This document shows positions 3,928-48,350 of a stretch of DNA of 64,000 nt, in pieces. The position numbers and the translations under genes were made by a program. A model generated the notes under the pieces. That model was not told the origin of the DNA. It did no database searches and was given only the letters and a program-made list of their open reading frames with translations. The stretch's first letter is position 1; each line of letters begins with the position of its first letter. The stretch is from an uncultured Clostridia bacterium (GTDB lineage Bacteria; Bacillota; Clostridia; Christensenellales; CAG-314), in assembly GCA_947053925.1 (NCBI GenBank), contig CAMRUG010000002.1, forward strand, positions 238,003 to 302,002. The letters are read 5' to 3'.

Positions 3928-5016
3928 TTACTCCTCGTCAGAATTTTTCATTTCTTCAAACATTCCGCTTTGCATAGCGGCAGTATAAGATTTAACGTCA
4001 ATCTTCCAACCCGTAAGTTTCGCCGCTAAACGCGCATTCTGCCCTTCCTTACCGATTGCAAGCGAAAGTTTTTCATCGGGAACGACAACCTTAGCTTCCT
4101 TATTGTCTTCGTCGGCTTGTACAATCAAAACTTTAGCAGGAGACAACGCTCTTGCAATATAATCAAGTATATCGTTACTCCAAGGAATAATATCGATTTT
4201 TTCTCCGCCTATTTCAGAAACAATAGCATTAACTCTTACACCCTTGTTGCCTACGCATGCGCCCACGGCGTCTATATCGGGGTCGGTAGAATAAACTGCC
4301 ATTTTAGTACGGAAACCTGCTTCGCGCACAATACTTTTGATTTGCACTATATCTGCACGGATTTCGGGCACTTCGTTTTCAAACAGACGTTTGATAAACA
4401 TATAACTCGCGCGCGAAAGCATTACCTGAGTACCGCCGACGCTATCCCTTACACGCTTAACCAAAACTTTTATTCTATCACCAGCGTGATATTTTTCTCC
4501 GGGAATTTGTTCCTGAACTGTCAAAACTCCTTCCGTTTGGTTTTTGCCTATTTCAACGAAAATCGTACCGTCGTCTTTAACACGCGTAACTACGCCGATG
4601 AGCAATTCGTTTTCCTTATCCGAAAACTGATTAAAAGTAACGTCTTTTTCCGCTTGATGAAGACTGTTCATAATAACTTGTCTTGCATTCTGAGCGGCAA
4701 TACGTCCAAACGTACGGGGGTCGATTTCCGTCAAAACCTCGTCTCCGAGTTTATACGATTTCTTTATCAGCTTGGCGTCTTCCAAAGCAATTTCCTTTTC
4801 GGGCGTTTCAACGACTTCAACCACTACCTTGCAAATATATGCTCTGATAGTAAACTTGTCGGGATTTGTTTTAACGACAACATTAGAAGCTTCGCCGAAA
4901 TTCTTTTTACAAGCGATAGCTAGCGCCGTTTCCAAAGATTCGATTACCTTATCTTTGCTTATCCCTTTTTCTCTTTCCAATTCGTCTAACGCAAGGAAAA
5001 AATCTTTGCTGGTCAT
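3928..5016 (-). CDS. nusA: Transcription termination/antitermination protein NusA
   Basis: This 362-aa protein has the short Gram-positive NusA architecture: an N-terminal RNA-polymerase-binding domain (1-about 125), an S1 domain (about 130-200, including [16 protein letters not shown]) and two KH domains. KH1 contains [14 protein letters not shown] and KH2 contains [24 protein letters not shown]. It lacks the acidic C-terminal repeats of proteobacterial NusA. NusA binds the beta-flap and nascent RNA to modulate pausing and termination. It follows rimP by 13 bases. Confidence 0.97.
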
Positions 5017-5029
5017 TTTTACGTTCCTC

Positions 5030-5488
5030 CTAAAACTCTATGATAGGCTCGACTTTTGCCGTATCTTTTTTTATAAATTTTATTGCCTCACCGGAATCAA
5101 CGGTTATACAAAAAGAATCGTCGTCATAACTGGACAACACCCCTTGATAAACTTTTTTTCCGTTAAAAGGCTTGTACAATTTAACTGATATTTTTTTATT
5201 TAAATTACGCTTATAGTCGCGCTCGACTTTTAAAGGTCTGTCTAATCCGGGAGAAGAAACATTTAGAGTATACGATTCTTCAATCGGGTCAAGTTCGTCC
5301 AACGGTCCGTCTATGGCTCGGTGGAGTTTTTCACAATCGTCGATTGTTACACCGCCGTCCTTATCTATTACCACAGTCAAATTCATACCGTCAAAACGTT
5401 TCTCGTATGTTACTTCCAATATCTCCAGACCGAATTCATCCGCAATAGGCTGAACAAGCGCAAATACTTGATCGGAAACTTTACCCAT
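5030..5488 (-). CDS. rimP: Ribosome maturation factor RimP
   Basis: The 152-aa protein matches RimP in length and motifs: EFGLEILEVTYEKR, a VVIDKDGGVTIDDCEKLHRAI block and SYTLNVSSPGLDRPL. RimP acts in early 30S head assembly. It is the first gene of the rimP-nusA-ylxR-ylxQ-infB-rbfA-nrnA operon, with a GGAGG ribosome binding site directly upstream, a leader hairpin at 5509-5536 and a sigma-A promoter at 5625-5653. Confidence 0.95.
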   Translation of the reverse strand: MGKVSDQVFALVQPIADEFGLEILEVTYEKRFDGMNLTVVIDKDGGVTIDDCEKLHRAIDGPLDELDPIEESYTLNVSSPGLDRPLKVERDYKRNLNKKISVKLYKPFNGKKVYQGVLSSYDDDSFCITVDSGEAIKFIKKDTAKVEPIIEF

Positions 5489-5676: not shown

Positions 5677-7317
5677 TTACTTAACTCTACTTGCCAAAAC
5701 ACTCATAGAACGCGCCACGGTAACAGCAGTATCGAAGCACAATTTTGAACCGTCATAGTTAACCTTGCAAGTTTTAGCAACGTCTTCTAATTTGGTACAA
5801 TTCGGCTTTTTTACAAAAATACTGTTATCAAATAAATTTGAGAGTAACTCCGTTTGATTGACTTGTAAATTCGCAAATTGATACCCGATCGGCGCGGCAT
5901 AATAATTCAATAAGTCCAATGTTTGCGGCAAATTCATTCCTACGATTTCACAGCCGTTTAAAAATTTGTACAAATCGGAAATAATTTCTGTTATCGTAGG
6001 AAAGAACACTATTTTTTCAACAGAAGTTTTCGCCTTAGACAAAACTTCGTTGCTAATATCGGCTTCCGGATTAACATAGGTAAAAAATTGTTCGGATATG
6101 TGTCCGTCGGTAATTTTTACGCCGCATATTGCAAAAATTTTATCTTTTGCAATGTTATATCCTGTAGCATTGATATGCAAAACAACATACGTTTTGTCGG
6201 ATAAAATAGATTTGCCTATTATTTTATCTACAAAAGTAGTTTGTAAATATTCTTTATATATACTGGGTTTTATCAATACATACTCGTCGGCGACAGGTCG
6301 GGTAAATTCTGCCAACTTACTTATCGGCGAAATAATACACTTACATATGTCGTAAACGCACATTTCCAATTGTTCGCTATAACTGTTAAAAGACACTTTG
6401 CCGCGCACTATTACCGACATACTGTCGTAAATATCCATAACCTTTTTCATCTTTTTGTCATTTGCCAACGTTCTTGTACGCGATAACGTCAAGGCTTCCG
6501 AATCAGTCTTGCCCATTTTTTCTTTAATGGTCAAATAATCGGCAATTTCAAATTTAACAAAAACAACACAAGTAATCGAGCCGCCCGAAGCATCCGTAAG
6601 AGTAAATTTACATATATGCATATTAGGATTGCTTTTAGACGCTTTAAGAGACTTGTTTGAAACAGTACCGCAAATAACGCACGAATCCGTTGCCTTACGA
6701 ATATCGGAAATATACATAGGCGAACTCAAAATTACCTTTCCGATATGCTTTTCTACATTACTGACGGTAAAGTATCTCGATGGCTTTAATAACTCTCTGT
6801 TAACAGCAAAATGAACCAGTTTTTCCTGTTCGGCAAGATCTACTTTTATTGACGCAGAATCATCAATTAACGACGTTAATTTGATTTCATAACAAGTATA
6901 CTCTTTAAAAAATTTTTCTAATTGCCCGCATAAATCTGCCGTTTCTATGTTTTGATTCATTACGGAATTTACTTTAAATTCCACGTTAATTTCACGCCCG
7001 CTAATACTCACATACATATTGTTTTTTATAAGCGGAGCAAAAAGCGGATATTTATTTTTCAAAATATCGTTCAATAATTTTTTTAAACTTAGTTCCGTAA
7101 ATTGGTCATTAACAAAACTAACAGAACAAGAATATGTTGTCGGCACTAAACTTCTTGTATACTCGGTTATTGCTTTTCTCGTCTCAATGTTTAATTCACC
7201 AACATTTGGGTAAGAAAAAGTGCAAAAAACTTTTCGCAGTTGCTTATCAACCCGAATTTCTCTTGCACGCAAATCATTTAACTCTGAAAATTGTTGATGT
7301 ATCTTACTTATTATCAT
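5677..7317 (-). CDS. PolC-like N-terminal protein without PHP or polymerase domains, dead exonuclease
   Basis: The 546-aa ORF lies exactly where polC sits in Bacillus-type genomes, next to rimP-nusA, but a full PolC is about 1,400 aa. Residues 1-200 look like the PolC N-terminal region. Residues about 205-330 resemble the OB domain (VICGTVSNKSL, FTLTDASGGSITCVVF). Residues about 375-540 resemble the DnaQ/DEDDh exonuclease. There the ExoI D-x-E is replaced by H381-I-N383 (VVLHINATG), and the ExoII aspartate appears to be T466; an ExoIII-like aspartate (FDTAVT) remains. The PHP halves that normally bracket the exonuclease and the whole polymerase are absent. It overlaps ispG by 4 bases. I infer a non-catalytic derivative; the domain assignment is by eye. 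Confidence 0.65.
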   Translation of the reverse strand: MIISKIHQQFSELNDLRAREIRVDKQLRKVFCTFSYPNVGELNIETRKAITEYTRSLVPTTYSCSVSFVNDQFTELSLKKLLNDILKNKYPLFAPLIKNNMYVSISGREINVEFKVNSVMNQNIETADLCGQLEKFFKEYTCYEIKLTSLIDDSASIKVDLAEQEKLVHFAVNRELLKPSRYFTVSNVEKHIGKVILSSPMYISDIRKATDSCVICGTVSNKSLKASKSNPNMHICKFTLTDASGGSITCVVFVKFEIADYLTIKEKMGKTDSEALTLSRTRTLANDKKMKKVMDIYDSMSVIVRGKVSFNSYSEQLEMCVYDICKCIISPISKLAEFTRPVADEYVLIKPSIYKEYLQTTFVDKIIGKSILSDKTYVVLHINATGYNIAKDKIFAICGVKITDGHISEQFFTYVNPEADISNEVLSKAKTSVEKIVFFPTITEIISDLYKFLNGCEIVGMNLPQTLDLLNYYAAPIGYQFANLQVNQTELLSNLFDNSIFVKKPNCTKLEDVAKTCKVNYDGSKLCFDTAVTVARSMSVLASRVK

Positions 7318-8351
7318 TTAGCAATTAAATCTATTTCCCTTTTGAACTCTTCTACAGCAACCGATTCGTCTACCGTTTTATAAATCTTTCCGTATTTAAA
7401 AAACACGCAACGCCCGTTAGCGCCTGCAATACCGACATCAGCGTCCAAACATTCTCCCGGACCGTTGACTTCGCACCCCATAACGGCAACTTTAATATTT
7501 TTGCGCATATCTTTTACATATTCGTAAATTTCCGTTGCGGCTTTTTCCAAATCATAACCGCATCTGCCGCATTTAGGACAAGATACAAATTTTACGCCGT
7601 CTCTTAAATTAAGAGACTTTAGTATTTCCTTTGCCGCACGGACTTCTTCAACAGGATTAGCCGTTAGAGAAACCCTGATAGTATCTCCTATTCCGTCAAG
7701 CAGCAATGTCCCTATTCCTACAGAATTTTTTACCAACCCCTGATATGCCGGTCCCGCTTCGGTTACGCCCAAATGGATAGGATAATCGAATGACGCGGCA
7801 ATACTTCTGTTTACCCTTACCATTTCGGAAACGTCGCTGCTTTTTACGGACAATACTATTTTGTCAAAACCTTTATCTTCAAAATACGTTATATATTGAC
7901 GTAAATTTGCTTCAATTGCTAAAACTTTATCGCCGTTGTGCTTTTTAAGCAAGTCTCGGTTAACAGAACCGCCGTTAACTCCAAGCCTTATAGGAATGCC
8001 GTTAGACTTAGCGCAATCGATTACGGAATCGAGTTGTTTAAAAGACATATTACCGGGGTTTATACGGATTTTGTCCGCCCCTGCCTCAATTGCCGCAACC
8101 GCAAGTCTGCCGTCAAAATGAATATCGGCAACGAGAGGCATATCTGTATTTTTTCTAACAATCGAAAACGCTTCTGCCGCTTTATTATCAGGCAACGCTA
8201 TCCGCACTATATCGCAATCGGAATTTTGCAAGTCGTTTATCTGCCGTAAAGTACTGTCTACATCGCAGACGGAGACATTCGTCATTGACTGCACAGATAT
8301 AGGTGCACCTCCGCCGATTGGTAAGTTTTTGATTCTTATTTTTTTCGTCAT
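7314..8351 (-). CDS. ispG: 4-hydroxy-3-methylbut-2-en-1-yl diphosphate synthase (IspG)
   Basis: This 345-aa [4Fe-4S] enzyme converts MEcPP to HMBPP in the non-mevalonate isoprenoid pathway. The start PIGGGAPISVQSMTNV is typical, the TIM-barrel region carries ADIHFDGRLAVAA and KIRINPGN, and the cluster ligands appear in SCPKCGRCGYD and VMGCEVNGPGE. It follows rseP by 3 bases and overlaps the polC-like gene. With dxr and uppS nearby, the operon concentrates isoprenoid and undecaprenyl synthesis. Confidence 0.96.
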   Translation of the reverse strand: MTKKIRIKNLPIGGGAPISVQSMTNVSVCDVDSTLRQINDLQNSDCDIVRIALPDNKAAEAFSIVRKNTDMPLVADIHFDGRLAVAAIEAGADKIRINPGNMSFKQLDSVIDCAKSNGIPIRLGVNGGSVNRDLLKKHNGDKVLAIEANLRQYITYFEDKGFDKIVLSVKSSDVSEMVRVNRSIAASFDYPIHLGVTEAGPAYQGLVKNSVGIGTLLLDGIGDTIRVSLTANPVEEVRAAKEILKSLNLRDGVKFVSCPKCGRCGYDLEKAATEIYEYVKDMRKNIKVAVMGCEVNGPGECLDADVGIAGANGRCVFFKYGKIYKTVDESVAVEEFKREIDLIAK

Positions 8352-40142: not shown

Positions 40143-42317
40143 TTATTTACTCTCGTTTTCATCTACAACAAGCAGTCCTATCGTAAGCAATCTATCGTAC
40201 AAAGCGTCCAATGTCATATAATCGTAATTATAAATTGCACTCAAAGCCAATAAACGGCCATCGCTGTTTAATTCTCTTATTGTCTTTTGTTCGTCAGGAT
40301 ATAATTTTGAGAACAAGAATAGAATAATTTCGTTAAGCCCGTGATAAGTTGTTAAACAAGCATGGAGTTTTTGACTGCAGTCTCTTCTTTTAAAATCAGT
40401 TTGACCGTATTCATTAACATACTGACGACTCAAAAGCGTGTTTTTGCTCATCTGAGAATAATCGGACAACAAATAGTAAGCGTTCCATCTCGCATGCTCG
40501 ATAAAGGCAAGTACATTGCTGGAATAGGTTTCAAAATAAAACGAATAATTGTTATATCCGCTATTTATGCAGGGATTTACATATTTGTCAAAATACTCTT
40601 CCTTAGTTATTACGCGCGTACAGTTTTCGTCTTGCTTACTCAGCCCAAAACCCAACAATCCAAGTTTAAACGGTATATTCAAAGCATGATAGATATTTGA
40701 AAACTGCTGATCCACATCCAGTTTGCCCCACTCTTCAACCATAATTTTACGGTTTTGCGCTTCTTTAAATCTCTCTAAAATTGCCTTTCGCTTTGATTCC
40801 GATTGTACTGTTCCGCTTGACCAGTTTGCAGATTCTGTAGTATCGTTATATAACAAGTTTATGCGCATAGCAAGTTCTGTTAAATGCTCGTTCACTATCG
40901 AATCTCTTGAATATGCGTCTTTCTCGTCCCCGAAATAAACAATACCGTCATTAGACTCATTAAGTTTAGAGCAATTCCCGTTCTTAGTACGCACAAAAAT
41001 TTGGTAATTTTCTTCGTCCGCAAGCAATTTTCTTATAGTTTGCGCATAAGCAGAATCTACCAAGTCGTCATCCAGAGATATGATAAAATAAGTATAACTG
41101 TCTTCATTGACTATTTTTTTGAAAACTTCTTTAGCTTCAACTGAATTTGCATCTATTTTCTTAGGAGTAATTAAATCGCAAATTTTGTCAGGTTTCTCAA
41201 AGTCGCATCCTTTAAATTTTTCGTTTATTTCGTATAAAATTTTAGAAAAATTCTCATTATGCATTGAATTTTCGTTATTATCAATTACATAATAATGCAC
41301 GGGCTTTGATGACAATCTGCCGTCGGCACATTCGGCAAACTGAAACTGCATTGCCGTCATACAAAATAGCCGATAATTGACTTTGCCGAATCCGACAAAT
41401 ACGACATTTAACTGTTTTGACTCTTTTATTGCACAATTATCCAAATAAAACGAACGAGGCAAATACTTACTCATAGGATATTCAAAAACAAATTTACGCG
41501 CCAAAAGTTCGTATTTATTAAAACAAGTTATATAAGCGCCTACGCTCTGCTCTGTTTTGGCAATAAACTTTTCGTTAATTACTTTTATTTCGTCAGTCTG
41601 CACTTCCAGATGAATAAAAAGCGTACCATCATATTTCTTTTTTATTAACGAAAAGAAATTTATCAACTCCAAATAAGACTGATTAGAGTCGCAAAAAGCT
41701 ATTATATGATATTCTTTGCTTTTTTTTAGCTTATGCAATAAATATTTAGCGTCCAACCTAGAACGGAAAACAACGGTTCCGCTTTTAATTAGATCGGCAT
41801 ATTCGCTTTTGCCGATATTAGTTCCCCAAAGTATGCTGTTAGAATTTGTACGGACATATTTTAATCCCATAGGAGAAACACCGACAACTATATCGCAACT
41901 ATGTCGAAAAAGTTTTTTTTGAGAAACAAAGTTCTTTAGCCTTTGACTGAAGAAGCTTACAAAACTCAGAATTGCCGTTGCAGAGCACAGTATTTCAACA
42001 ATTATAAAATCAGCATAAAATATTGGATACTGTTTTGCAATTCCTAAAATCAAATTTGTTTCGGGTTTAAACACGAATAAATCCAATGCTTTGTTAATTA
42101 GCGACAAACAATAAAAGAAATCTAAATTTATGCCACTGCTCACAGCCGCTATAATATACAACGAATATCCCAACAAAAACGAAGGAATAAGATACAATAA
42201 ATTTTTCTTAGAAACAAGCTCTTTATCTACAATTATTGTACGGATAAACAAATACGTCATCAAACCCAGTACAATTAAGGACAAAACTAAAAAAATTATT
42301 CCCAACGCCAAATACAT
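40143..42317 (-). CDS. Membrane protein with two Rossmann-like regions and a C-terminal RyR-like domain
   Basis: The 724-aa protein begins with three to four transmembrane segments (residues 4-26, 39-62, about 98-125). Two TrkA-N-like nucleotide-binding regions follow, near residues 143-260 (DIVVGVSPMGLKYV) and 310-450 (LNVVFVGFGKVNYRLF, a GxGxxx loop). Residues about 600-660 resemble the ryanodine receptor domain: IEHARWNAYYLLSDY and then KLHACLTTYHGL, the usual EH-x-RWN and K-H-x-L pattern. It is the last gene of the TIR operon (18-base gap, AAGGAG site). I infer a membrane-bound nucleotide or NAD sensor or effector. Confidence 0.7.
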   Translation of the reverse strand: MYLALGIIFLVLSLIVLGLMTYLFIRTIIVDKELVSKKNLLYLIPSFLLGYSLYIIAAVSSGINLDFFYCLSLINKALDLFVFKPETNLILGIAKQYPIFYADFIIVEILCSATAILSFVSFFSQRLKNFVSQKKLFRHSCDIVVGVSPMGLKYVRTNSNSILWGTNIGKSEYADLIKSGTVVFRSRLDAKYLLHKLKKSKEYHIIAFCDSNQSYLELINFFSLIKKKYDGTLFIHLEVQTDEIKVINEKFIAKTEQSVGAYITCFNKYELLARKFVFEYPMSKYLPRSFYLDNCAIKESKQLNVVFVGFGKVNYRLFCMTAMQFQFAECADGRLSSKPVHYYVIDNNENSMHNENFSKILYEINEKFKGCDFEKPDKICDLITPKKIDANSVEAKEVFKKIVNEDSYTYFIISLDDDLVDSAYAQTIRKLLADEENYQIFVRTKNGNCSKLNESNDGIVYFGDEKDAYSRDSIVNEHLTELAMRINLLYNDTTESANWSSGTVQSESKRKAILERFKEAQNRKIMVEEWGKLDVDQQFSNIYHALNIPFKLGLLGFGLSKQDENCTRVITKEEYFDKYVNPCINSGYNNYSFYFETYSSNVLAFIEHARWNAYYLLSDYSQMSKNTLLSRQYVNEYGQTDFKRRDCSQKLHACLTTYHGLNEIILFLFSKLYPDEQKTIRELNSDGRLLALSAIYNYDYMTLDALYDRLLTIGLLVVDENESK

Positions 42318-42335
42318 TGCGCAATTCTCCTTTGT

Positions 42336-42968
42336 TTAAATATCGCAAAGCGGTTTATTTCTTATCATTTTATAACTCTTAACAGCAGGCAAATTGTATC
42401 CGCCATAATCGTCAAATGCATCGCCCACTATTTTGAATCCCAACTTTTCATAAAGCCTAATGGCCGCGATATTGTTTTCCAAAACCGTCAATTCTATAAT
42501 CTCTGCATCGCTTGAACTCAATAGGCTATCAAGCATATAAAAACCGACACCACGCCTGCGAAAAGATTCCTTTACGGAAATATTACACATTGACGAACCC
42601 AACTTACGATAATTATAGGTTTTTTCCATATACTCTGATGCGCCAAAAAACGATCGAGGCGGAACAACTCCGCTATTGGCAAAATCCCTAAGCATACTGT
42701 CTTCATTCCACTTAAAATCGTTAGAATGACACAGAGCTACCGAAACTACTTCGTCCGTAGGCCTGTACTTTACAATGTATACTGCTTTTTTATAAAATAC
42801 GCTATCTGCATTTTCAAACGAGCGTATCAATACTTTCTTCGCATTATTCATATCGCCGAAAATATCACTGTAAATAAACGGGTCGGTATTATAAATCAAT
42901 TCCGCTGTTTCACAATAATCGGTTTGAAATGACAATAGCGACAATTCATAATTCTCAATCATATTCAT
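42336..42968 (-). CDS. GNAT family N-acetyltransferase in the TIR operon
   Basis: The 210-aa protein has the GNAT acetyl-CoA motif SFRRRGVGFYMLDSLL and the following IIELTVLENNIAAIRLYEKLGFKIVGD, close to RimI-type proteins. The first half is divergent. Its start overlaps the 768-aa gene by 14 bases, so it is translationally coupled and belongs to the system. The substrate is unknown; modification or immunity of an operon protein is possible. Confidence 0.85.
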   Translation of the reverse strand: MNMIENYELSLLSFQTDYCETAELIYNTDPFIYSDIFGDMNNAKKVLIRSFENADSVFYKKAVYIVKYRPTDEVVSVALCHSNDFKWNEDSMLRDFANSGVVPPRSFFGASEYMEKTYNYRKLGSSMCNISVKESFRRRGVGFYMLDSLLSSSDAEIIELTVLENNIAAIRLYEKLGFKIVGDAFDDYGGYNLPAVKSYKMIRNKPLCDI

Positions 42969-45261
42969 CTATCATAACAAAGTTTTTGTATGCTATAATT
43001 GTAGGTTCTATCCACAATTTAATTTCGTTACTACCGCACATTTTATTTGGCAGACAATAATATTTAGAGTTTATTAAATACCTGAATTCCGACAATACTT
43101 CCACATCGATATTCTCATCGCGTGAAGGTGTAGAAATAGAAAAGTGCGCAATTCGATATCCGTCGCGAGTTTCGTGAGTATACTCATAAGTTCCGACATA
43201 GGGATAAATACCGTCTAAACCGCTTTCCTTATCACTGCCGTTTTGCAGATATCCGTAAACATAGATTATTTTTTTAATGGCTTCGTCCATTTGAGATTTT
43301 TCGTTGACGTTTTCAAATTTCAGCAATTCCTTTAATGGTCCTATTTGATTGAAATCAAGAAAATAATGGCGTCCTAAAAACGTGCGTAAAATCTCGTTTT
43401 TGGTCTTAGGTCCTTTTACAAAGACACACTCGTCATTCAACTTTTTAATTTCGTCTAAAACTTTTTCTACCGCGGTTATACTAGAACCGAATGTTTTTAA
43501 ACGCTTTAACTGACTGGCAACCTCTGTCCTAAATGCGATATTTGCACTGTTTTGGAATTCGTCTATCTCCTTACCGGAAAAAATATAAAAACTGGAACGC
43601 TCCCTAAAATCGTTTTTAACTTCGGCATATTTAAAAAATCCGCAATAAAACACATACAGTGCTTTCAGCGTATTAAGTACAATAGACGTTGCCCGTTCCT
43701 TTTTACGCTCAATAGACAAATCGGCTCTCGTAAGCCATTCTAACATTTGTATGTGAGAATTGATATTGAGAGGATATTTGCTTTTGTATTTATTGTCTTG
43801 CGATTCGTTGATTTTAAGTAATTCAGACAAATAGTCTATAAGTTTCAATGCTCTGATTTCTGACGTAATAGACAAACGCTGCGCGTCGATTACTCTATTG
43901 CTTCCGTCTGTAACCGTGTGATTTTCGCCGAAATACCTGCTTACCCATCTCTCAAATGCAAGGGCTGTTTCTTTCTTTGTATCCTCTTTAAGTTTTTCGG
44001 CGTCGAATACGTTTGATCCAAATCGCATTTGAATATTGTAAAGCAATTTATCGTATGTATTATTGTCAACAGAAAATAAGAATTGCAGTACGCTTGTAGC
44101 ACTCTCTTTGACAAATAAAATTGCAATAATCGTATCCCACACATGATGAAATAAATCCGGATATTTCAACTGATAATTATTGCGCAAGGCAAGCTTGTTT
44201 TCCGCCGTTAAAATATCGGAAACAGACATCGTCAATTGTTTGATATAACGGTAATTGATAGCATAAAAATCTTTGATGTAAATTTTTTTATTACTATCCC
44301 TTGTACTGCTAATATGCAAATCTCGCAAAACAGTAATATACGCCGTTGGCGAAACAATAATAAACTCTCCGTTGCGAGCAGTATAGTTTTCGTCGGCAGT
44401 CAGGTTTATTCTGACATAGCTGTTATCGCTACCGACACGGGCATAGTTTAAATATGCTACTTCGCGCCTATCCTTACCTACTTTATCGCGGACTACTTCT
44501 TCCAGATAGTAGAACTCGTTCCCGATATTTATCAGAGTCAAATTAGTACTTAAAATCTCGTCGGTTATATCGTCTTTAATTACGATTCTGTTTATACGGT
44601 CGAACGGTATTTTGTTGAGTCTAGAAGGAATAGTTCCGTCATCTGACTTATTCTCAAAATCCGGCAGCTCCAATACGGCATAAATATTCTTAAATTCATT
44701 TTTTAACGGTTCAAATTCCAAATCAATTTTGCGTAAATACGGAAAAAGCCGTAAAAATTCTATCAATTCGTCATACTTTGAATTAAGATTCTCTTTTCCT
44801 ATTAGTCCGCGTGAAGAATTCCTAGCAATCTTGGCTTTTTGCACAAAATACGCGAATCTGTTGCTCGAATCCGGATTAAGCATCTCTGACAAATCCAATC
44901 TTTGACACAAAACTCCTCTTGAATGTATGTCCAACTGCACATCCATTATGGTGGGCTCTATAACAGAATAATTTAAATTCTTTTCAGTATATAATTCGGA
45001 AAATGTCTTGTTGACGCGCATATATGAATTGTAAATTTCGGAATCGTCTATATCTATATTACCGTCATTTTCTTTCCAGTTTCTAAACTTTGCATATATC
45101 AAAGCGAACGTCAAATTCAAAACATTAGAAAAATACTGATTGATTTCCTCTGTAGTAGTCAAAAAATCCGAATTGCCGTATTTATTATTAAAAATAATTT
45201 TCCGTACTTCGTTGTCCGCAACTAACAAGGAAACTTTTTTCAAACAATCGTTTCTATCCAT
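42955..45261 (-). CDS. 768-aa unknown protein of the TIR operon
   Basis: I do not recognise any domain. The sequence has no membrane segment or signal peptide. It is a mix of helical N-terminal region (1-200), beta-rich middle (about 200-340, e.g. FDRINRIVIKDDI, YVRINLTADENY) and a long helical second half (350-690), ending in a beta-rich segment (DGYRIAHFSISTPSRD, NEIKLWIEPTIIAYKNF). It starts 3 bases after the ATPase stop with GGGAG. A scaffold or target-recognition role is inference from size and position. Confidence 0.8.
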   Translation of the reverse strand: MDRNDCLKKVSLLVADNEVRKIIFNNKYGNSDFLTTTEEINQYFSNVLNLTFALIYAKFRNWKENDGNIDIDDSEIYNSYMRVNKTFSELYTEKNLNYSVIEPTIMDVQLDIHSRGVLCQRLDLSEMLNPDSSNRFAYFVQKAKIARNSSRGLIGKENLNSKYDELIEFLRLFPYLRKIDLEFEPLKNEFKNIYAVLELPDFENKSDDGTIPSRLNKIPFDRINRIVIKDDITDEILSTNLTLINIGNEFYYLEEVVRDKVGKDRREVAYLNYARVGSDNSYVRINLTADENYTARNGEFIIVSPTAYITVLRDLHISSTRDSNKKIYIKDFYAINYRYIKQLTMSVSDILTAENKLALRNNYQLKYPDLFHHVWDTIIAILFVKESATSVLQFLFSVDNNTYDKLLYNIQMRFGSNVFDAEKLKEDTKKETALAFERWVSRYFGENHTVTDGSNRVIDAQRLSITSEIRALKLIDYLSELLKINESQDNKYKSKYPLNINSHIQMLEWLTRADLSIERKKERATSIVLNTLKALYVFYCGFFKYAEVKNDFRERSSFYIFSGKEIDEFQNSANIAFRTEVASQLKRLKTFGSSITAVEKVLDEIKKLNDECVFVKGPKTKNEILRTFLGRHYFLDFNQIGPLKELLKFENVNEKSQMDEAIKKIIYVYGYLQNGSDKESGLDGIYPYVGTYEYTHETRDGYRIAHFSISTPSRDENIDVEVLSEFRYLINSKYYCLPNKMCGSNEIKLWIEPTIIAYKNFVMIDEYD

Positions 45262-45264
45262 AAA

Positions 45265-46185
45265 TCAGTCTCCCAAAAGACATTTAACAACCTTTTTGTA
45301 TGCTTCAATCGCTTTAATTTCATCTTCTGCAAGTAAGTCTTCCGATAATTTAAACAAAACGTCTTCCTGTATTTTAAAACGTTTCACTTCGTTCACTCCG
45401 AAAAAGTCTTCGCCTTTACCTACCATATCTAGACATATTTGATTGCCATGCGTATCTAAACTACCGAAAATTTCCATAATATCGCGTTTGATGTTCTCGT
45501 AACTTACAATCAAACAGTCAACAACTATGTCATCCGTCGGCACTGCATTAGGTACAAGTACAAACTTTTTATTGCAATAACGCGGTAAAATCCGTTGCAT
45601 AAAGTCAAGTGTGCCGTATCTGAATTGATATGTAATTCTCATACAAGTCGCTATAGTATCGGAATACTCTATCGCCCAATTGGCTGTTAATTGATCTCCT
45701 GCCGGAGTATCAAAAATTACAGCAGAGCAATCGTACAGTTCGCAAGAATCTATAAGATCTTTAAACTTCTCTTTTACGCTGTTTCCGACATCGTAATTAT
45801 TATTGCTTTCTTTATTCAACGGCTTACCCGTGTCGGCAGGTATAAACAAAACTGACGCATTGCTTTCGTTGTCTAAACCGAAATATTTACCGACAGGGAT
45901 ACATCTTCCGAAAATAGGATGACTTGACAGCGGGATAAAGTCAGGCGAATACAGACCTTTTGCAACACAGGTATTAAGCGCTTCCTGCACTGAATAAGAC
46001 TTTGTATTTGCCCCTTTCTTTTTGAGTAAAAAAGTTAGTCCTGCGCTGTCTAAATCCAAATCCATCAAAATAATCGGATGTTTTGGAGAAGCATTTAATT
46101 GCTTAACAATATACGGTAAAGTGTTGTAAGCCAGTGAACTGCGCCCTGCGCCGCCCTTATAAGAAAAATACGATAATTTAATCAT
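45265..46185 (-). CDS. ParA/MinD-like ATPase with KGGxGR variant Walker A
   Basis: The 306-aa protein starts MIKLSYFSYKGGAGRSSLAY. The deviant Walker A keeps the signature Lys10, but the P-loop lysine is Arg15. Walker A-prime/switch residues are in IILMDLDLDSAGL (residues 38-50) and Walker B-like VIFDTPAGD. This KGGVGR-motif variant is an established subgroup of SIMIBI ATPases that often lies near TIR or other signalling genes. It probably acts as a nucleotide-dependent switch for the flanking large proteins. It sits 11 bases after the coiled-coil gene. Confidence 0.88.
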   Translation of the reverse strand: MIKLSYFSYKGGAGRSSLAYNTLPYIVKQLNASPKHPIILMDLDLDSAGLTFLLKKKGANTKSYSVQEALNTCVAKGLYSPDFIPLSSHPIFGRCIPVGKYFGLDNESNASVLFIPADTGKPLNKESNNNYDVGNSVKEKFKDLIDSCELYDCSAVIFDTPAGDQLTANWAIEYSDTIATCMRITYQFRYGTLDFMQRILPRYCNKKFVLVPNAVPTDDIVVDCLIVSYENIKRDIMEIFGSLDTHGNQICLDMVGKGEDFFGVNEVKRFKIQEDVLFKLSEDLLAEDEIKAIEAYKKVVKCLLGD

Positions 46186-46196
46186 TTTATACCTCT

Positions 46197-48350
46197 TTAA
46201 AATTTATCTCTAATACATCTTTGCAAAGCATCAAATATTTGCTTTTCGGCATAGTCGTCCATATCTTTATATATCTTGTTAAAATTCTCGCGTTGAGCCT
46301 CGTTTATCCTCTCAAAATCTCCGATTTTCAGTTTGAATAAATCGGCAAAATTACTTAAAATTACACGTTTTAACAATACCGTCAAATTTTCTTCTTCGCG
46401 CACTATTCTGCCGTTTTCTGTAAGCAAATCGTTAAAAATGCTTTTTAAGAATGTACCCAATTCTTTGTTCAAATAGTTTTCAATAATATTTTCTATTTCC
46501 TGAACAACCGGCGCTTTTTTATTTGCAAGTTCGTTTTTTTCACCGACTAAAGTAATTATTTTTTCTTCGTAATCAGACTTAATTGATGCCAACTCTATTT
46601 CTGCGGCTTGTTCCTGTTCGGACAAACGGCGCAATATTTCTTTGTCTTTGGCAGCCAGAGCTTTATCCTTATCGGCAAGTTCTTTATCTTTTTTTGCTAT
46701 ATATTCTTCTTTAAGTAAAGCAAACGGCTCCTCGTACTTTTCGTAATAGTCATAAAAACTACGGAGCGCAAAAACGTAATTATAGTTATTGATGAGCTGA
46801 TATCCGTCCCTATCCCATAACCATTCGTTTTCCATTTTGTTGCTCATAATGTTATCCTTGAAAAGACGCATCTCGTATTGCGGATACGGTGTAAGATACA
46901 TAGATAAAACGTTATACGTTTTAATGATAACCGGTAACAAATTTAATGCGACTATGTTTTGTTTACGCACAAAACGCGCTTGAAGCGTTATGGAATTTTG
47001 CGCAACACTGTCATCAGGTAAATTTTCGTTTAATTTGACAAGATATTGCTCGCAAATGTATTCTTTTCTCAATCTGGCAAGTTTTTTATAAAGCCTTTGT
47101 ACATTAGGTATTGTGTACTGTAAACTGTCGTAAAACTCTACTTCCTTATTTTTAGATTTATAATCCAAATCAACGCCTGCCGCCATCATAATATTTATAG
47201 CAAACAATACGTTAAATAAAGCATCGCTGGTACTGGCGGTTTCTATACTTTGTGCAGTAACTAGGTTAAAGTTATAACTGAAAAAGTCCTTAGTAGTATC
47301 AACCTTAGAAAAATATGTGTCTACATAATGCCCAGCGTCCATCATTACTTTATTAAACAGCGAAAAATGGCGCCTATATATTCTTTTAATAAAATCAAAA
47401 TCACGTTTTTGGTATGCTTGTAGCGAATCCAAATCCATCCCGTATTGTTTTTCATCGGCATTTTCAATCGTTACGTCGTCGCCGCTGTCTTTTATATTAT
47501 TGCGTAATTTTCTAACAAGGCTTATGGAATTTGAAAATGTTTCATAAAATGCCAAATATGCGTCGCTTACAACATAAGTATAATACAATGAAATATCGGT
47601 ATCTTTATGATAATCTGACGGAATATCGGTAAATGTCCACCCCTTATAACGCATATTAACACCGTTGTTGTCAAGCAACGGTTGGTCGTCGCCGTTCAAA
47701 ATATAATCAACACCCAAATCGCCGTTGATTTTTAAAGCCGATTTCGACAATTTATCTAAACATTTTGCAATAATGCTTTCAACAAACGACAATTCCTTTC
47801 TCGTTCTCTCATTTTGCGAAATCCTCTTCTGTGCTTGAATAAAACAATTGTCAATTTCTATCGTGTTCCTGTTCGCATCTAAATCATTAGCAAGTAACCG
47901 TCTTATTTCAATTGCAACACGCAGCACTAATGCAATTGACTCTGTATAGCAAATTATATTTGATTCTTCCGATACATAGGGCGAAGCGTCAAATACCAGC
48001 TCTTCCGTATCAGCATGAATACGTCGCAAAACATCGTTAAAAGCAATATTGATTTTTTCGGAAACGTCGGGATATTTACCTAAATCCAAATTAAATTTAG
48101 CGTATTCCGCAAGCGTTATAATGCCGTAACACTGCGAAATCAGCCCCACACGGTTATCGCTTTTCTTCATTACAAAGCCTTGCGAATTGTTATTGACATC
48201 TAAATTCATAAAACTTTCAATCATCTTTTTACCGACTTCTTCTTTATCGATATACAAATTGAAAATTTCCTGCGCCCTGTTTGCAAGCGTATCTGCAGAT
48301 TTGGCAGACGGTTTAAGCAACAGATCAATTCTTTGGTTGTTGGTCTCCAT
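46197..48350 (-). CDS. 717-aa helical coiled-coil protein of the TIR operon
   Basis: The protein is predicted largely alpha-helical. Residues about 230-290 include a conserved-looking aromatic patch (YKGWTFTDI, DISLYYTYVVSDAYLAFYE), possibly part of an all-helical toroid or solenoid. Residues 553-612 form a clear coiled coil with KDK-ELA-type heptads (KELADKDKALAAKDKEI). A helical C-terminal domain follows. No catalytic motif or membrane segment was found. It lies 13 bases after the TIR gene and has GGGGAG upstream. An oligomerising adaptor is the simplest inference. Confidence 0.82.
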   Translation of the reverse strand: METNNQRIDLLLKPSAKSADTLANRAQEIFNLYIDKEEVGKKMIESFMNLDVNNNSQGFVMKKSDNRVGLISQCYGIITLAEYAKFNLDLGKYPDVSEKINIAFNDVLRRIHADTEELVFDASPYVSEESNIICYTESIALVLRVAIEIRRLLANDLDANRNTIEIDNCFIQAQKRISQNERTRKELSFVESIIAKCLDKLSKSALKINGDLGVDYILNGDDQPLLDNNGVNMRYKGWTFTDIPSDYHKDTDISLYYTYVVSDAYLAFYETFSNSISLVRKLRNNIKDSGDDVTIENADEKQYGMDLDSLQAYQKRDFDFIKRIYRRHFSLFNKVMMDAGHYVDTYFSKVDTTKDFFSYNFNLVTAQSIETASTSDALFNVLFAINIMMAAGVDLDYKSKNKEVEFYDSLQYTIPNVQRLYKKLARLRKEYICEQYLVKLNENLPDDSVAQNSITLQARFVRKQNIVALNLLPVIIKTYNVLSMYLTPYPQYEMRLFKDNIMSNKMENEWLWDRDGYQLINNYNYVFALRSFYDYYEKYEEPFALLKEEYIAKKDKELADKDKALAAKDKEILRRLSEQEQAAEIELASIKSDYEEKIITLVGEKNELANKKAPVVQEIENIIENYLNKELGTFLKSIFNDLLTENGRIVREEENLTVLLKRVILSNFADLFKLKIGDFERINEAQRENFNKIYKDMDDYAEKQIFDALQRCIRDKF

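Follow-up and report, generated by a model that had tools for sequence, protein, structure and literature searches.

The polC locus and its neighbours

The window (the whole stretch of DNA that was analysed, 64,000 nucleotides long) carries at 5677..7317 on the minus strand an ORF of 546 aa that encodes a short PolC without polymerase and PHP domains. Upstream lies ispG (7314..8351, minus strand; named from sequence and position, without a family-model test), whose stop codon is overlapped by the ATG start of the short polC ORF. Downstream, 189 bp separate the end of the ORF from rimP (5030..5488, minus strand; also named from sequence and position), in which interval no polymerase remnant was found. 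Next comes nusA (3928-5016), the short gene thus adjoining the nusA-infB genes. Location between ispG and rimP-nusA was our criterion for a PolC locus and the window gene meets it; the order ispG-short polC-rimP-nusA is retained at most loci compared, and the full PolCs of Christensenellales occupy the same position wherever neighbours were detected. Elsewhere in the window, at 40146-48350 on the minus strand, a run of three adjacent ORFs (724, 768 and 717 aa) has no Pfam match, and the three are mutually dissimilar.

Domain architecture and relationship to PolC

All parts of the protein are encoded on the minus strand. The N-terminal region (aa 1-180; 6778..7317) comprises two tandem alpha/beta KH-like domains, probably the counterpart of PolC NTD I/II, and is followed by an OB domain (aa 181-335; 6313..6777) recognised by Pfam PF01336 and by hhalign alignment to the PolC OB, by a linker (aa 336-370; 6208..6312) that replaces the N-terminal PHP half of full PolC, and by a DnaQ-fold exonuclease (Exo) domain (aa 371-546; 5680..6207) that has lost all DEDDh residues. 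Within the linker, QTTFV (aa 359-363; 6229..6243) lies where catalytically active relatives have their QxxLF motif of clamp-binding type. An AF2 model reproduces this layout, showing a tandem pair of KH-like domains followed by an OB fold and, after a loose linker, a DnaQ fold, with a pLDDT of 85.6 for the whole model and of 85.6 and 87.5 in the N-terminal region.

The NCBIfam PolC model PRK00448 matches the protein at 6.3e-15 and only through the Exo domain, while the PF01336 match (aa 214-262, 7e-05) falls under the curated cut-off. No PHP or polymerase Pfam match was obtained in the 546 aa, and the criterion of a PHP-Pol3-HhH core is not met. When 23 proteins of the genus were aligned by hhalign with full-length PolCs of the same order, OB and Exo matched at 99.3% (E 8e-21), and a Foldseek search with the AF2 model returned PolC 9qpc as the top PDB match (E 2.9e-12). 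The OB and Exo domains are thus homologous to those of PolC. For the NTD of the window subfamily no direct sequence link to PolC was found; the link runs through seven catalytically intact relatives (set A2), which align with PolC from NTD to Exo (100%, E 1.2e-61, columns 18-511), and is also supported by the tandem KH-like layout of the model. The literature likens PolC NTD I/II to tau domain V, which gave only a weak structural match here (5fku_E, rank 37, E 0.03) and was on that account rejected as the nearest NTD structure. Fold matches of the NTD include KH-domain RNA proteins such as NusA. Descent of the window gene from PolC is very likely.

Loss of the exonuclease site and continued selection

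All five DEDDh positions are replaced in the window protein (H381, N383, T466, K525 and T530), which does not meet the residue criterion for a DnaQ/epsilon proofreading exonuclease. Within the genus, the changes D to H or Y and E to N are found repeatedly, with ExoI position 1 varying between H, Y and N, and the H and D of ExoIII are absent. The site is lost in 34 short proteins, belonging to three genera of family f1 (g1, g18 and g19), to family f17 and to one genus of family f30 (g74), and the other inactivated lineages show unrelated substitutions at the catalytic positions. A midpoint-rooted DnaE tree built from 40 genomes by maximum likelihood forces at least three separate exonuclease losses, showing that the DnaQ-type site died independently at least three times, the window lineage included.

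Site loss is also seen in otherwise intact PolC, as the full-length protein L038 (G036, f13) has all five exonuclease positions changed and L036 (G034, f11) has a degraded site with a D to Y change. The genome of the window further encodes a separate 193-aa DEDDh-type exonuclease (PF00929; G000:C1:201527-201979) that is patchy among congeners; such a separate DnaQ-type proofreader was rejected as a general replacement in the genus, since two congeners lack any RNase_T match.

The short protein is present in 24 of 25 sampled genomes of the genus at 39-60% identity, the exception being G016, which is 79% complete. In the 24 members the open frame is retained at 543-597 aa, and 57 columns are invariant across 23 species. 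NTD, OB and Exo all show a strong third-position bias in their substitutions, and within the genus the dead Exo is conserved as well as the OB (0.51 vs 0.54). In the closest pair, changes in Exo by codon position number 26/14/80 and dN/dS is about 0.11; values of about 0.1 were obtained in two congener pairs, whereas an active pair gave about 0.02. These are pairwise YN00 estimates with NG86 as fallback, and several dS values are saturated. The protein is under purifying selection; that on the dead Exo is looser than on active Exo, the difference in dN/dS indicating that constraint has been partly relaxed.

Three claims of the sequence-only reading can be judged at this point. It had described a PolC-related ORF at the polC locus without PHP and polymerase, which held by profile, hhalign, Foldseek, Pfam and the ispG-rimP position. 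Its claim that the ExoI acids became His and Asn also held (H381/N383), the remaining three catalytic positions being lost as well, and so did its view of a remodelled protein under selection, given the conserved ORFs, the third-position bias and the Exo dN/dS of about 0.1.

Distribution and catalytically intact relatives

In a survey of 151 genomes of the order, most of them draft assemblies, the families split roughly in half between full PolC, mostly of 1330-1650 aa, and the short form, with open frames of about 490-710 aa. The short form is thus conserved across about half of the sampled Christensenellales families. Among the matches examined from 196 genomes of the class, those covering the whole short form came from Christensenellales only. 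The order was identified through Candidatus Fimimonas merdipullorum, which carries the same protein and whose genus has been placed in family CAG-314 of Christensenellales (PMC8035907). The protein is also carried by MAGs labelled Corallococcus sp. and Ca. Fimimonas (L062, L073 and L076); NCBI taxonomy lists Ca. Fimimonas in Myxococcota, in disagreement with the paper that described it, which assigns it to Christensenellales.

Outside the inactivated lineages, all five DEDDh residues are intact in 54/54 active short forms, which come from 12 other families, one further genus of f1 (g20) and most of f30. In 41 of these 54, the OB-Exo linker contains the pattern Q..[LMIF]F, against 0.93 expected by shuffling linkers, and outside linkers it occurs 7 times in 26,479 aa. 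The pattern was chosen after viewing the sequences; it agrees with the published clamp-binding consensus QL[S/D]LF or QxxLF (PMC12309361) and occupies the place of the first PHP half in PolC. None of the 34 dead forms contains the strict clamp motif. Members of the window genus have a linker consensus of QxNFV with the Q invariant (24/24), and the QTTFV of the window protein, with V at position 5, is non-consensus and may bind the clamp weakly or not at all, an inference from sequence. A further candidate, QTELLSNLF (aa 488-496), was set aside as a clamp motif as it lies within a predicted helix of the Exo fold.

Replicase content

The genome of the window, a draft estimated to be 95% complete, contains one PF07733 match, a DnaE of about 1195 aa in which PHP, finger, HhH and OB are all present. 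In polymerase content the genome fits a DnaE1-only system, its sole C-family polymerase being this DnaE, which has PHP and OB as well as a clamp motif. A PolC profile search found no PolC polymerase in this genome or in seven congeners, while both controls gave full PolC. PF07733 matches were present in 78 of 80 short-PolC genomes tested; all are DnaE, and no PolC polymerase was among them. The other two genomes, G062 and G133, had no PF07733 match, possibly owing to assembly gaps or a diverged DnaE. Irregular cases are a second, diverged C-family polymerase in G006 (G006:C1:91676-92458, open frame 1072 aa, PF07733 1.6e-26), a partial extra PF07733 match in G107 and a DnaE in two pieces in G083 and G147. 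Full-PolC genomes have PolC plus DnaE, apart from some incomplete cases, G113 and G035 among them.

The PHP signature of nine residues (HHDHEHCDH), which when intact is scored as an active proofreader in the literature (PMC12926913), is kept in 40/40 DnaEs examined, and of the short-PolC genomes checked 32/32 have an intact PHP proofreading site in DnaE. The DnaE encoded alongside the window protein has the intact signature, as reported for clostridial DnaE1; its assignment to DnaE1 rather than DnaE3 is tentative. In the DnaE tree of 40 genomes, full-PolC and short-PolC genomes are separated with support of 100/100. DnaX length showed no clear pattern when compared between the groups.

A trimmed PolC as proposed proofreader and possible later adaptor

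We propose that PolC lost its PHP and polymerase modules once, keeping NTD, OB and Exo joined by a new linker, and that the trimmed protein then acted as an epsilon-like subunit proofreading DnaE in trans. Retention of NTD-OB-Exo after polymerase loss would preserve an activity known from B. subtilis, where PolC, in complex with DnaE, proofreads the errors of that polymerase in trans (PMC5627055). The QxxLF linker motif would have held the protein at the sliding clamp, substituting for the clamp motif that disappeared together with the C-terminus of PolC, while NTD and OB would have held it at the replisome. Where the PHP site of DnaE is intact, the DnaQ-type site may become dispensable, which could account for its repeated loss. 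In the window lineage, the protein would have been kept as a non-catalytic replisome adaptor or regulator binding DnaE and/or the clamp, retention of a dead protein being most simply explained by non-catalytic contact with DnaE, the clamp or DnaX.

We give this sequence of events as a whole a probability of about 0.6. The ancestral role as trans-proofreader for DnaE is likely, with clamp and DnaE binding inferred. For the present adaptor role of the window protein the case is evenly balanced; clamp binding, DnaE binding and the adaptor role are all inferences made without binding or activity data. The direction of change, that is, loss of PolC, rests on PolC being general in Clostridia. A bolder reading, for which we see as much reason to doubt as to believe, is that in an order of gut Clostridia a second replicase was turned into a clamp-tethered DnaE proofreader, a convergent epsilon, and that in at least three lineages this became a dead, structural and still-needed replisome subunit.

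Several other explanations were considered. A decaying pseudogene, a PolC leftover without function in the genus, would fit the loss of catalytic residues and strict clamp motif and the weaker Exo constraint relative to the active pair, but it is very unlikely considering the retained locus and open frames in 24 genus members, the third-position bias in all three domains and the 57 invariant columns. It is also improbable that the protein is still a nuclease or another nucleic-acid enzyme with a rebuilt site, for instance one using the conserved His/Asn, rather than an adaptor: the dead Exo is constrained and H/Y for D and N for E recur in the genus, yet all five catalytic positions are changed, ExoI position 1 varies, the ExoIII H and D are gone and other inactivated lineages carry unrelated substitutions.

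A replication-independent role for the NTD-OB-pseudoExo protein, such as a translation- or RNA-linked task, draws on the adjoining rimP/nusA-infB genes and on the NusA match of the NTD fold. We consider it unlikely, since the position is the ancestral polC site, also occupied by full PolCs of the order, the short form tracks the absence of a PolC polymerase and active relatives carry a clamp-type motif. Finally, an assembly artefact or a split PolC with its polymerase half elsewhere could be suspected in a draft genome that is 95% complete, but is all but excluded by the identical architecture in dozens of independent assemblies and by the lack of a PolC polymerase match in this genome, the seven congeners and the other short-PolC genomes.

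The remaining claims of the sequence-only reading can be judged against this background. Dependence on a DnaE-type replicase held, the single C-family polymerase being DnaE, and the alternative of a second polC elsewhere in the genome was rejected, as neither PF07733 nor the PolC profile revealed a PolC polymerase. The suggestion of a replisome adaptor remains plausible and is our leading reading for the window copy, though only by inference. The label of a PolC remnant was revised to a PolC-derived, epsilon-like subunit secondarily inactivated in the window lineage, because in most other families the catalytic site of the short protein is intact and a clamp-type motif is present. Absence of PolC similarity or a full PolC adjacent in relatives would have refuted the reading; both were looked for, and neither was found within the genus.

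Were the proposal true, a natural replicase switch would be at hand with its stages still visible, along with repeated natural experiments in which the proofreading and scaffolding functions of a PolC exonuclease are separated. It would further be predicted that ibezapolstat and other PolC inhibitors find no PolC polymerase to target in these commensals.

Comparison with known systems

Surveys recognise three replicase combinations and assign PolC plus DnaE1 to Clostridia (PMC3919608, PMC12926913). Because an intact polymerase region was a condition of inclusion in the 2013 survey, polymerase-less PolCs would have escaped it. Neither a PolC without polymerase nor Clostridia without PolC were found described in the open-licence literature searched, an absence that is weak evidence.

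With PolC-type DNA polymerase III (B. subtilis; E. faecium 9qpc) the window protein shares the NTD-OB-Exo order (for the NTD by inference through relatives and fold), the locus and profile and fold similarity, but it lacks PHP and polymerase core and its exonuclease site is dead; the clamp-type motif of its active relatives is located in the linker between OB and Exo and not C-terminally. Those active relatives resemble E. coli Pol III epsilon (DnaQ) in being separate DEDDh exonucleases with a clamp-type motif, their function being predicted, in cells with a DnaE replicase. In contrast to epsilon, the short PolC derives from PolC, has a KH-like NTD and an OB, and carries its motif ahead of the exonuclease, and the catalytic residues are missing from the window copy. 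PolC variants of Clostridia and Negativicutes without the Exo insertion (PMC3919608) likewise show PolC domain loss in Clostridia, though of the opposite kind, with PHP and polymerase kept and Exo lost. The inactivated DnaQ-like domains of PolB2 and PolA2 (PMC12926913) are, as in the window protein, dead domains that have been kept, but they sit in B- and A-family polymerase proteins, whereas the window protein has no polymerase domain.
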